Shown: piece after piece, positions 14,444-16,625 of the stretch | Layout of the letters: each line of letters opens with the position of its first letter | Position numbering within the stretch: position 1 is the first letter of the stretch | From: Pseudomonadota bacterium | Lineage (GTDB): Bacteria; Desulfobacterota; Desulfovibrionia; Desulfovibrionales; Desulfomicrobiaceae | Reading direction: 5' to 3' | Assembly: GCA_030529235.1 (NCBI GenBank) | Contig: JAUMXF010000009.1 | Coordinates: 1 to 42,049 of the forward strand | DNA length: 42,049 bases | Notes under the pieces: generated by a model | Told to the model about the DNA's origin: nothing | Database searches by the model: none | The model's input: the letters and a program-made list of their open reading frames with translations, nothing else | Translations under genes and position numbers: made by a program

Positions 14444-14472
14444 AAAAAAACGGCCCGTCCATGTAAAGGGCC
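14444..14472 (-). terminator. cimA terminator
   Basis: GGCCC/GGGCC around an 11-base loop, followed on the minus strand by GTTTTTTT, about 70 bases after the cimA stop. Confidence 0.75.
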
Positions 14473-14542
14473 TGTCCGGTTTTTTGTGCCGGAAACGGCC
14501 TTTTCCGGCCGGGCGCAGGGCTTCGTAAACGGCCGCGCGGCG

Positions 14543-16156
14543 TCAGATGTCCCGGATGGCCTGGGTCAGCTTCTTCTGGTCGTCCTTGAACAGTTTGTAG
14601 TTGATGGAGTCTTCCAGAGCCTGGCGACTGGCTTCGATGATGTTGTAGGATACGCCCACGGTGGTCCACCTGCTCTGGCTGTCCCCCGATTCGATGAGCA
14701 CCCGCACTTCCGAGGCCGTGCCGCCGCTTTCACGGGTCATGCCGGACAGCACGCGGACCTTGAAGTCCATGAGGCGCATCTCTCTCAGATTTGGGTAGAA
14801 GCGCTCCAGAGCCTTGCGCAGGGCGCAGTCCATGGCGTTGACCGGGCCCTTGCCCGTGGCCGCCGTGTGCTCGACGACGCCGCCCACGCGCAGCATGACC
14901 GTGGCTTCGGTGAAGGGTTCCGCGTCGGCGGTCAGCACGGAGTCCATGATCCGGACGCTGATCAGCCGGAAATAGCTCCGCGCCCGGCCCAGCACCCGGT
15001 TCACCAGCAGCTCGTAGGACGCCTCGGCGGCGGAGTACTCGTACCCTTTCTCCTCGCGCGTCTTCAGCTCCGTCAGAAGCTCCAGGACAAAGGGGTCGTC
15101 CTTGTCCAGATCGAAGCCGTACTGCCTGGCCTTGAGCAGGATATTGGCCTGCCCGGCCAGATCCGAGAGCAGAACGCGCCGTTTGTTGCCCACCAGCTCC
15201 GGTTCGATGTGCTCGTAGGTGCGTGGGTTGCGGCGCACGGCGGAAACGTGGACCCCCCCCTTGTGCGTGAAAGCGGACTGCCCGATGTAGGGCTGGCGCT
15301 TGAAGGCGCGCAGGTTGGCCACTTCGCTGACAAAGGCCGACGCGTCGCTCAGGCGGCGCAGGTGGCCGTCAGGCAGACAGGACAGGCCCATCTTCAGTTC
15401 CAGATTGGGGATGATGGAGCAGAGGTTGGCGTTGCCGCACCGTTCGCCGTAGCCGTTGATGGTGCCCTGGACGTGGACGGCCCCGTGTTCGACGGCGGCC
15501 AGGGAGTTGGCCACTGCCAGCTCGCAGTCGTTGTGGGCGTGGATGCCGAGCCGGGCCTCGGGCAGGTCGCGGCGCACGGCGTCCATGATGGGCGCGATCT
15601 CTCCGGGCAGGGTGCCGCCGTTGGTGTCGCAGAGCACCAGTAGGTCCGCGCCCGCTTCCAGAGCCTTGCACAGACAGGCCGTGGCGTAGGCCGGGTCGGC
15701 CTTGTAGCCGTCGAAGAAGTGCTCGGCGTCGTAGAAGAGTTCTCCGGCGTGGGAGCGCAGAAACGCCAGAGAATCGCGGATGAGTTCCAGATTGCGTTCC
15801 AGCGGGATTTGCAGGGCTTCGGTGACGTGAATGTCCCAGGTCTTGCCGAAGATGGTCAGAACCGGCGCTCCGGCTTCCACCAGCGCCAGCAGGTTTTCGT
15901 CCGCGTGGGCCGTGGTTCTGGCGGCGTGGGTGGAGCCGAAGGCCGCCAGTTTGGCCGTGCGGGGCCCGTGCTGGCGCATTTCCGCGAAGAATCGCTTGTC
16001 CCGCGGGTTGGAGCCCGGCCAGCCGCCTTCGATATAGGCCACGCCCAGATGGTCGAGTCTGGCGGCGATGCGCTGCTTGTCCTCGGTGGAGAGGGTCAGC
16101 TCTTCGGACTGGGTGCCGTCGCGCAGGGTGGTGTCGTAAATCTGGACGGTTTGCAT
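14543..16156 (-). CDS. cimA: Citramalate synthase
   Basis: Condenses acetyl-CoA with pyruvate to (R)-citramalate, the first step of the threonine-independent route to isoleucine. The 537-residue length fits the long CimA form. The HMG-CoA-lyase-like TIM barrel opens with QIYDTTLRDGTQSEELTLS, and the metal-binding segment GIHAHNDCELAVANSLAAVEHGAVHVQGTINGYGERCGN is intact near residues 205-245. The C-terminal ~130 residues form the LeuA-type allosteric dimer domain where isoleucine feedback acts in relatives. The gene is preceded by a leader peptide and terminator that look like an isoleucine attenuator. Confidence 0.95.
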   Translation of the reverse strand: MQTVQIYDTTLRDGTQSEELTLSTEDKQRIAARLDHLGVAYIEGGWPGSNPRDKRFFAEMRQHGPRTAKLAAFGSTHAARTTAHADENLLALVEAGAPVLTIFGKTWDIHVTEALQIPLERNLELIRDSLAFLRSHAGELFYDAEHFFDGYKADPAYATACLCKALEAGADLLVLCDTNGGTLPGEIAPIMDAVRRDLPEARLGIHAHNDCELAVANSLAAVEHGAVHVQGTINGYGERCGNANLCSIIPNLELKMGLSCLPDGHLRRLSDASAFVSEVANLRAFKRQPYIGQSAFTHKGGVHVSAVRRNPRTYEHIEPELVGNKRRVLLSDLAGQANILLKARQYGFDLDKDDPFVLELLTELKTREEKGYEYSAAEASYELLVNRVLGRARSYFRLISVRIMDSVLTADAEPFTEATVMLRVGGVVEHTAATGKGPVNAMDCALRKALERFYPNLREMRLMDFKVRVLSGMTRESGGTASEVRVLIESGDSQSRWTTVGVSYNIIEASRQALEDSINYKLFKDDQKKLTQAIRDI

Positions 16157-16185: not shown

Positions 16186-16217
16186 AAAAAAGCCCCCGGC
16201 CTGCTGCCTGGGGGCTT
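16186..16217 (-). terminator. Attenuator terminator upstream of cimA
   Basis: AAGCCCCC (16217-16210) pairs with GGGGGCTT (16197-16190) and is followed by a U-run, 30 bases upstream of the cimA start. The left arm can instead pair with GCCU-C-GGGG at the end of the leader frame (16256-16248), forming an antiterminator of about eight pairs around one mismatch. Confidence 0.8.
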
Positions 16218-16241
16218 CTGGTGCGTGAAACACGGATGCCG

Positions 16242-16304
16242 TCAGCTCCCCGAGGCCGTATCGCGGTCCATGATCAGAATGATGATGGCGGGAGTGGCGT
16301 TCAT
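16242..16304 (-). CDS. Isoleucine-rich leader peptide of cimA (20 aa)
   Basis: A 20-codon frame in the cimA leader carries ATC ATC ATT CTG ATC at codons 7-11: four isoleucines and one leucine in a row. The stop (16244-16242) lies just past the antiterminator arm and 25 bases before the terminator stem. A ribosome waiting for isoleucyl-tRNA would leave the antiterminator arm free; one that reaches the stop would cover it and let the terminator form. There is no clear ribosome site before the ATG; the frame is open further to a TTG at 16343, so the true start is uncertain. Confidence 0.7.
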   Translation of the reverse strand: MNATPAIIILIMDRDTASGS

Positions 16305-16314
16305 ATCGTTTTCG

Positions 16315-16343
16315 AAACTGAAGGGCTGGCCGTGATTTGTCAA
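16315..16343 (-). promoter_or_regulatory. Candidate cimA leader promoter
   Basis: A perfect TTGACA (16343-16338) just after the stop of the upstream small gene, with a weak -10 (CAGTTT, 16320-16315) at 17 bases. If used, the leader transcript would begin only a few bases before the leader ATG, giving nearly leaderless translation. Confidence 0.4.
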
Positions 16344-16349
16344 GGCCGC

Positions 16350-16625
16350 TCACTGGGCGATCTTGATTTCCTGCGCGTCGATGACATCCATGCCGTTGTC
16401 CATCTCCCGCGAGCCGAGAACAATGGCCCGGCACCCGCCCAGGCCAGAGGCGTCGATGCCGCGCACGACGTAGTTGGTGGCGGTGGTGACCAGAATGACG
16501 CCCGAAGCGGTTTCCCTGAGGACGCCGTGTATTTCCACCGTTTCTCCGGCCAGGATCGGGGCCGGAGTCAGAGTCAGCAGGGCGATGATCAAAGTATCGC
16601 GGATATGGCCGACAATGCGATTCAT
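16350..16625 (-). CDS. Small exported protein, function unknown (91 aa)
   Basis: The ATG at 16625 (GAAGG five to six bases upstream) opens a signal peptide with hydrophobic core DTLIIALLTLTPAPILA, probably cut near residue 26. The mature ~65 residues (ETVEIHGVLRETASGVILVT ... DVIDAQEIKIAQ) alternate in a way that suggests a small beta-barrel of the OB type, as in bacterial periplasmic OB-fold proteins; one Cys (GGCRA) is present. No recognised family motif. It has its own promoter and ends directly before the cimA leader. Confidence 0.7.
   Translation of the reverse strand: MNRIVGHIRDTLIIALLTLTPAPILAGETVEIHGVLRETASGVILVTTATNYVVRGIDASGLGGCRAIVLGSREMDNGMDVIDAQEIKIAQ

Follow-up and report, generated by a model that had tools for sequence, protein, structure and literature searches.

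The question raised by this locus is why a short isoleucine-rich reading frame and a predicted intrinsic terminator stand directly ahead of cimA, the gene for citramalate synthase, in a member of the Desulfomicrobiaceae. The window analysed here is a stretch of 42,049 nucleotides, and all features of the cimA locus given below lie on its minus strand. We hold with considerable confidence that the leader is a ribosome-mediated transcription attenuator, by which the supply of isoleucyl-tRNA sets the expression of cimA. The gene (14543..16156) encodes a protein of 537 aa, carries the Shine-Dalgarno-like sequence AAGGGGA just 5′ of its ATG and starts 29 bases past the T run of the terminator. Its product was assigned as CimA by the equivalog model TIGR00977 (722.8 bits against a cut-off of 450), with the models for LeuA (isopropylmalate synthase) falling far under their own cut-offs, and it is 99% identical to CimA of the nearest genome (G011). 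The sole other family member found in the genome of the window is distant (28% identical) with a LeuA-like N-terminus, and no leader or terminator is visible ahead of it. CimA catalyses the committed step by which isoleucine is made from pyruvate through citramalate, and is also employed in metabolic engineering. As no threonine dehydratase was detected above the TIGR01127 cut-off in 16 genomes of the genus, isoleucine synthesis in these genomes probably has no known entry other than CimA, which makes the enzyme a sensible target for control by isoleucine alone. A terminator-like hairpin with a T run, AACCGGACAGGCCC..GGGCCGTTTTTTT, was read by eye after the gene (14447..14482), thereby suggesting that cimA is probably transcribed alone.

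The leader frame (16242..16304) comprises 20 codons and a stop, with its ATG at 16304-16302 and its TGA at 16244-16242, and reads MNATPAIIILIMDRDTASGS. Codons 7-11 (16272..16286) are ATC ATC ATT CTG ATC, specifying Ile Ile Ile Leu Ile, so that the four Ile codons of the frame occupy positions 7, 8, 9 and 11; re-reading of the window agrees in this with the first-pass annotation of the locus. The frame is followed by the elements of two competing folds. Segment 2 (GCCTCGGGG, 16248..16256) is the left arm of an antiterminator, while segment 3 (CCCCCAGGC, 16206..16214) serves both as the right arm of the antiterminator and as the left arm of a predicted intrinsic terminator, hairpin 3:4 with its T run (16186..16219; stem AGAAGCCCCC / GGGGGCTTTT), which folds at −24.9 kcal/mol over the terminator tail and was also flagged by a terminator scan at 16219-16186. 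The proposal that the arm at 16256-16248 can pair with the left terminator arm was upheld, as eight of nine positions pair with 16214-16206. The distance of 25 bases originally given from the stop to the terminator was accurate to within a few bases and not as an exact figure, the actual values being 22 bases to the start of the stem and 27 to the C-run. A further hairpin, 1:2 (16254..16269; arms 16269-16264 and 16258-16254), is formed in the window by GGaCCG / CGGCC, five pairs with a bulge, and is weak there; it is much stronger in relatives (CCGTGAT..ATCACGG) and strong in most congeners, with 80% of cells paired over 15 sequences, and its predicted role is to pause RNA polymerase.

We infer that the leader has a promoter, is translated, does terminate transcription and responds to isoleucine, and these steps would act together as follows. 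RNA polymerase would start at a promoter just 5′ of the leader, and a ribosome would begin the leader peptide. If the supply of charged tRNA-Ile is sufficient, this ribosome would reach the stop codon and cover segment 2 (16256-16248), upon which hairpin 3:4 would form and transcription would stop ahead of cimA. With too little charged tRNA-Ile the ribosome would halt on the Ile codons and leave segment 2 free to pair with the emerging segment 3, so that the terminator would be pre-empted and cimA transcribed.

The dependence of the two folds on ribosome position was assessed by placing a ribosome at selected codons and folding the RNA 3′ of it, both with segment 4 still to be transcribed and with it present. 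With the ribosome on the Ile codons and segment 4 still untranscribed, pairing of segment 3 with upstream RNA reaches P 0.94-1.0 in 17/17 loci; with the ribosome at the stop, the same pairing has P 0.00-0.61 across the 17 loci and 0.02 in the window. In a codon-by-codon walk of the ribosome through the window's leader, using footprints of 10, 13 or 16 bases, the switch falls between codons 13 and 16, just past the Ile codons at 7-11. The same switch was obtained for a sister-genus locus that was not in the RNA model described below (L173), and the E. coli ilvL leader, taken through the identical protocol as a control, gave P 0.82 on its Ile run and 0.005 at the stop. The anatomy of the leader and its ribosome-position logic are in this way established in silico, in agreement with the earlier claim that a stall on the Ile codons frees the arm and a ribosome at the stop covers it. 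For the full-length transcript at equilibrium the terminator is favoured in nearly all loci regardless of where the ribosome stands, and the model therefore requires antitermination to be kinetic, just as the textbook attenuator does; since equilibrium folding of the full-length E. coli ilvL leader likewise favours the terminator, the failure to show antitermination is a limit of equilibrium folding. With a free-energy z-score of −1.3 the leader as a whole does not stand out, and this value was not taken as evidence because a two-fold switch need not be unusually stable.

Taken alone, the Ile count of the window's leader is weak evidence (P about 0.014), and a pattern search found ATHATHATHNNNATH 20 times on both strands and in any frame of the 2.3 Mb genome, or about once per 230 kb of strand; conservation is the deciding evidence. 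An Ile-rich frame of 20-27 codons, a terminator and then cimA were found in 15/15 cimA-bearing genomes of the genus and in 2/2 full-length loci of the sister genus, of which all three genomes carry the Ile-rich leader, the terminator and the competing arm ahead of cimA. Only one congener (G010) lacks the leader, and it gave no cimA match either. In the relatives the C-run of the terminator starts within ~25-40 bases of the leader frame, and their leader peptides include MKNITASISIIILISVIPGSRSGE (L008), MKNIIAPISIIIISVIEKSRPGE (L009), MNIITLAIISIISEIHKSRPGA (L015) and MRTVFHCLSIIDIIWTATRRFGAACA (L018). The Ile run, the competing pairings and the terminator are thus all retained in relatives; relatives without the Ile run or without the pairings would, according to the first-pass annotation, have spoken against an attenuator. 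Thirteen of these loci were used to build a covariance model, and a search with it through 247 genomes of the order returned 18 strong matches (E 1e-22 to 9e-9), every one immediately 5′ of cimA and all confined to the genus and its sister genus, with the next-best match at E 8e-4. Among the strong matches is the sister-genus locus G021/L173, which lay outside the model-building set and encodes the Ile-rich MNATLCPIISITGIIRIASRRFGAAYA. Weak matches in other families (E 8e-4 to 0.01) were also returned, and the two that were inspected (L174, L175) are ordinary terminators beside unrelated genes with no Ile leader.

Compensatory changes were sought in the pairings themselves. For hairpin 3:4, 0/500 shuffles reach the observed covariation score and eight cells are two-sided. 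For pairing 2:3, columns 111/168 hold U-A in eight sequences, C-G in three and U-G in three, and columns 110/169 hold G-C in eight and C-G in two, these two being the window's lineage; the covariation score of this pairing was matched by 22/500 shuffles. These counts come from related sequences and are hence inflated, so that they are offered as supporting evidence only. In the percentage paired, pairings 1:2, 2:3 and 3:4 all exceed their register-shifted controls, and when dinucleotides are shuffled, the best duplex between the free leader and the left terminator arm is equalled in 4% of cases for the window and in <1% for nine of the remaining 16 loci. Both the conservation of the element and its two-sided changes, seen in 2:3 as well as in 3:4 and named from the outset as the appropriate check, are accordingly matters of in silico observation. 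The window's copy is among the weaker ones, with its four Ile codons, its bulged 1:2 hairpin and no Shine-Dalgarno sequence.

These data also bear on the reading that the hairpin is a mere terminator of the upstream gene and the Ile-rich frame a chance ORF. Terminators can follow any gene, and a 108-aa gene on the same strand does end at 16350, a few bases before the −35 element; however, the Ile-rich frame, segment 2 and the terminator are kept together in 18 genomes, several of which have different upstream sequence, while the strong model matches in 247 genomes lie before cimA alone and the leader retains Ile through synonymous changes, all of which makes this reading very improbable.

The composition of the leaders indicates what is sensed. 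Ile accounts for 28.5% of residues over the 17 leaders as compared to 5.1% in the neighbouring genes of the window, while Leu (4.5% against 13.1%) and Val (4.5% against 7.5%) are below background, which points to an Ile sensor and not to a general branched-chain sensor. Among relatives the Ile codons interchange synonymously between ATC and ATT, and alignment gaps within the frame are whole codons; the leader peptide thus appears, as judged from its sequence, to be under selection for its Ile content. A real attenuator could still respond to free isoleucine, if the nascent peptide arrested the ribosome instead of its codons awaiting tRNA. Arrest peptides exist, and the stretch ISIIILISVI is conserved in the genus, yet the peptide varies widely while its Ile content persists (as between the peptides of the window, L015 and L018), which fits codon counting and not a specific arrest motif, and we give arrest by the peptide no more credit than a chance frame. 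Least probable of all is a riboswitch or T-box that senses isoleucine or tRNA-Ile directly with the frame incidental, since, despite the frequent control of amino-acid genes elsewhere by such elements (PMC3766115, PMC12452182), none was detected at Rfam gathering thresholds in the window (five related loci gave one unrelated sub-threshold match), the leader of ~120 bases has no conserved aptamer beyond the frame and the hairpins, and what is conserved is codons and three pairings.

The attenuator proposed here is limited to one genus and its sister genus, and the generality across Desulfovibrionales that the first-pass annotation had envisaged was not borne out. A different genus of the family (g3) and the remaining families sampled from the order have cimA directly behind lysC, and neither a leader nor a terminator was found between the two genes. 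The arrangement was also absent within 450 bases upstream of cimA at another 79 loci, drawn from other Thermodesulfobacteriota, Nitrospirota and comparable groups, and blastn of the leader and the start of cimA against plasmids returned distant cimA coding sequence only. The genera that keep lysC beside cimA differ from the present genus, which is without a full-length match to aspartate kinase; in its genomes (G001-G015, and contig C144 of the window's own genome, G000) TIGR00657 matches ~190 residues or none. The lineage would have gained an attenuator as cimA left an ancestral gene pair.

The presumed promoter of cimA contains a perfect −35 element, TTGACA (16338..16343), and a presumed −10 element, CAGTTT (16320-16315), which is a poor match at a 17-base spacing. 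TTGACA is present 35-51 bases 5′ of the leader ATG in 17/17 loci, and the −10 hexamer is poor throughout; a promoter scan of the window gave no full sigma-70 match at the cimA leader. In the window the distance from the start of TTGACA to the ATG is 39 bases, which places the predicted transcription start ~4 bases 5′ of the ATG, and a Shine-Dalgarno sequence was looked for ahead of this ATG and none was seen. The first-pass annotation had noted neither this absence nor the −35 element nor the weak 1:2 hairpin. The distance is similar in one congener (L016) and in the sister genus, while in the remaining 12 loci it is 47-51 bases, mostly with an AGGA-like sequence. In the window's species, L016 and the sister genus the frame therefore lies within ~4 bases of the predicted start, and a ribosome would have to initiate there on leaderless or nearly leaderless RNA, which, if so, would be unlike the enterobacterial attenuator models. 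In the short-spaced species, either translation of the leader would start on near-leaderless RNA or the promoter call is misplaced. That cimA left an ancestral lysC-cimA pair, gained a new Ile-only attenuator and in some members has its sensing ribosome start on leaderless or nearly leaderless RNA is accordingly put forward as a tentative scenario, about which we are more doubtful than convinced. It was also observed that the spacer 3′ of TTGACA (TTGACAATCGATT, including the palindrome AATCGATT) is nearly constant in most congeners and alike at its beginning in the sister genus (L004-L018, A2 columns 1-26), being more conserved than a sigma-70 spacer requires; this constant spacer is lost in the window's lineage.

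Further leaders were encountered in the course of the analysis. In the genus, a second gene for acetolactate synthase, which was not detected in the genome of the window, is preceded by a Val-rich leader with 8-10 Val codons (e.g. MNRITADVSVSLVVVVVVCVVMDALTL) and a G+C-rich terminator (L129, L131, L148-L155). This is a probable valine attenuator, of the same design as the cimA leader in the same genus (a codon run and then a terminator) with different codons and a different gene, and valine synthesis thus seems to be handled separately from the control by isoleucine. In several families of Desulfovibrionales (L176-L205), TyrA (prephenate dehydrogenase) carries WWW or WWWW in its final ~20 codons, and the tyrA stop is followed after 25-42 bases by an intrinsic terminator and then by trpE in 8/8 loci checked (L140-L147). 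When the tyrA tail was folded, a ribosome on the Trp codons freed the antiterminator with P 0.69-1.0 as compared to 0.21-0.64 at the stop. The tail is a predicted Trp attenuator inside an operon, with the C-terminus of an enzyme as its candidate sensor, and is perhaps more unusual than the cimA leader. A 2005 survey of TyrA noted that in D. vulgaris the gene adjoins the trp operon, and did not describe an enzyme-tail sensor (PMC1173090). In the window's genome (L190) and in its nearest relative, G011, the TyrA tail is shortened to LWW and the terminator is gone; neither genome has a trpE match (TIGR00564), of which most congeners have one or two, and tryptophan synthesis has possibly been lost in both. 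Elsewhere in the window, two type II hammerhead ribozymes (RF02276, 54 and 58 bits) lie on the minus strand at 861-923 and 1183-1246, just downstream of three tRNA genes at 1431-1681. Together, the cimA, valine and tryptophan cases suggest that leader-peptide attenuation is routine for amino-acid genes in Desulfovibrionales.

Leader-peptide attenuators are textbook knowledge for the trp, his, leu, thr, ilv and phe operons (PMC1183508, PMC3766115). A 2013 survey of RNA regulons that included Desulfovibrionales proposed that amino-acid attenuators may have a gamma-proteobacterial origin, and its search set contained no Ile/Val model (PMC3766115); cimA is unmentioned in the main text of a genome-wide terminator survey (PMC2965389), and a reconstruction of delta-proteobacterial regulation mentions neither citramalate nor leaders (PMC545781). 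The first-pass annotation knew of no description of such control for cimA in sulfate reducers, and we too found no published cimA attenuator or leader peptide in the open-licence literature, bearing in mind that the absence of a report is not proof. The cimA leader thus appears to add to a known class of attenuators a gene where we found no such control on record, and the transcriptional control of cimA in sulfate reducers appears to be undescribed. Our proposal would extend the leader-peptide attenuation of isoleucine synthesis to a lineage in which surveys reported none.

The closest known counterpart is ilvL of the E. coli ilvXGMEDA operon, which likewise combines an Ile-containing leader peptide with an antiterminator and a terminator that compete, follows the same logic of ribosome position, and has a terminator hairpin (CACCGAAAGGTCCGGGGGTTTT) that looks like that of a congener of the window (L004, GACCGAAAGGTCCGGGGGCTTT). 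The two differ in that ilvL contains Ile, Val and Leu codons and precedes a multi-gene operon, whereas the cimA leader is enriched in Ile only, is shorter and precedes a single gene. E. coli K-12 is not known to carry cimA. The trpL, hisL, leuL, thrL and pheL leaders of enterobacteria belong to the same mechanism class, sharing a leader peptide, regulatory codons and alternative hairpins. The Rfam His, Leu, Thr and Trp leader models gave no match in the window or in five related loci, and these enterobacterial leaders differ from the cimA leader in the amino acid concerned and in the target gene.
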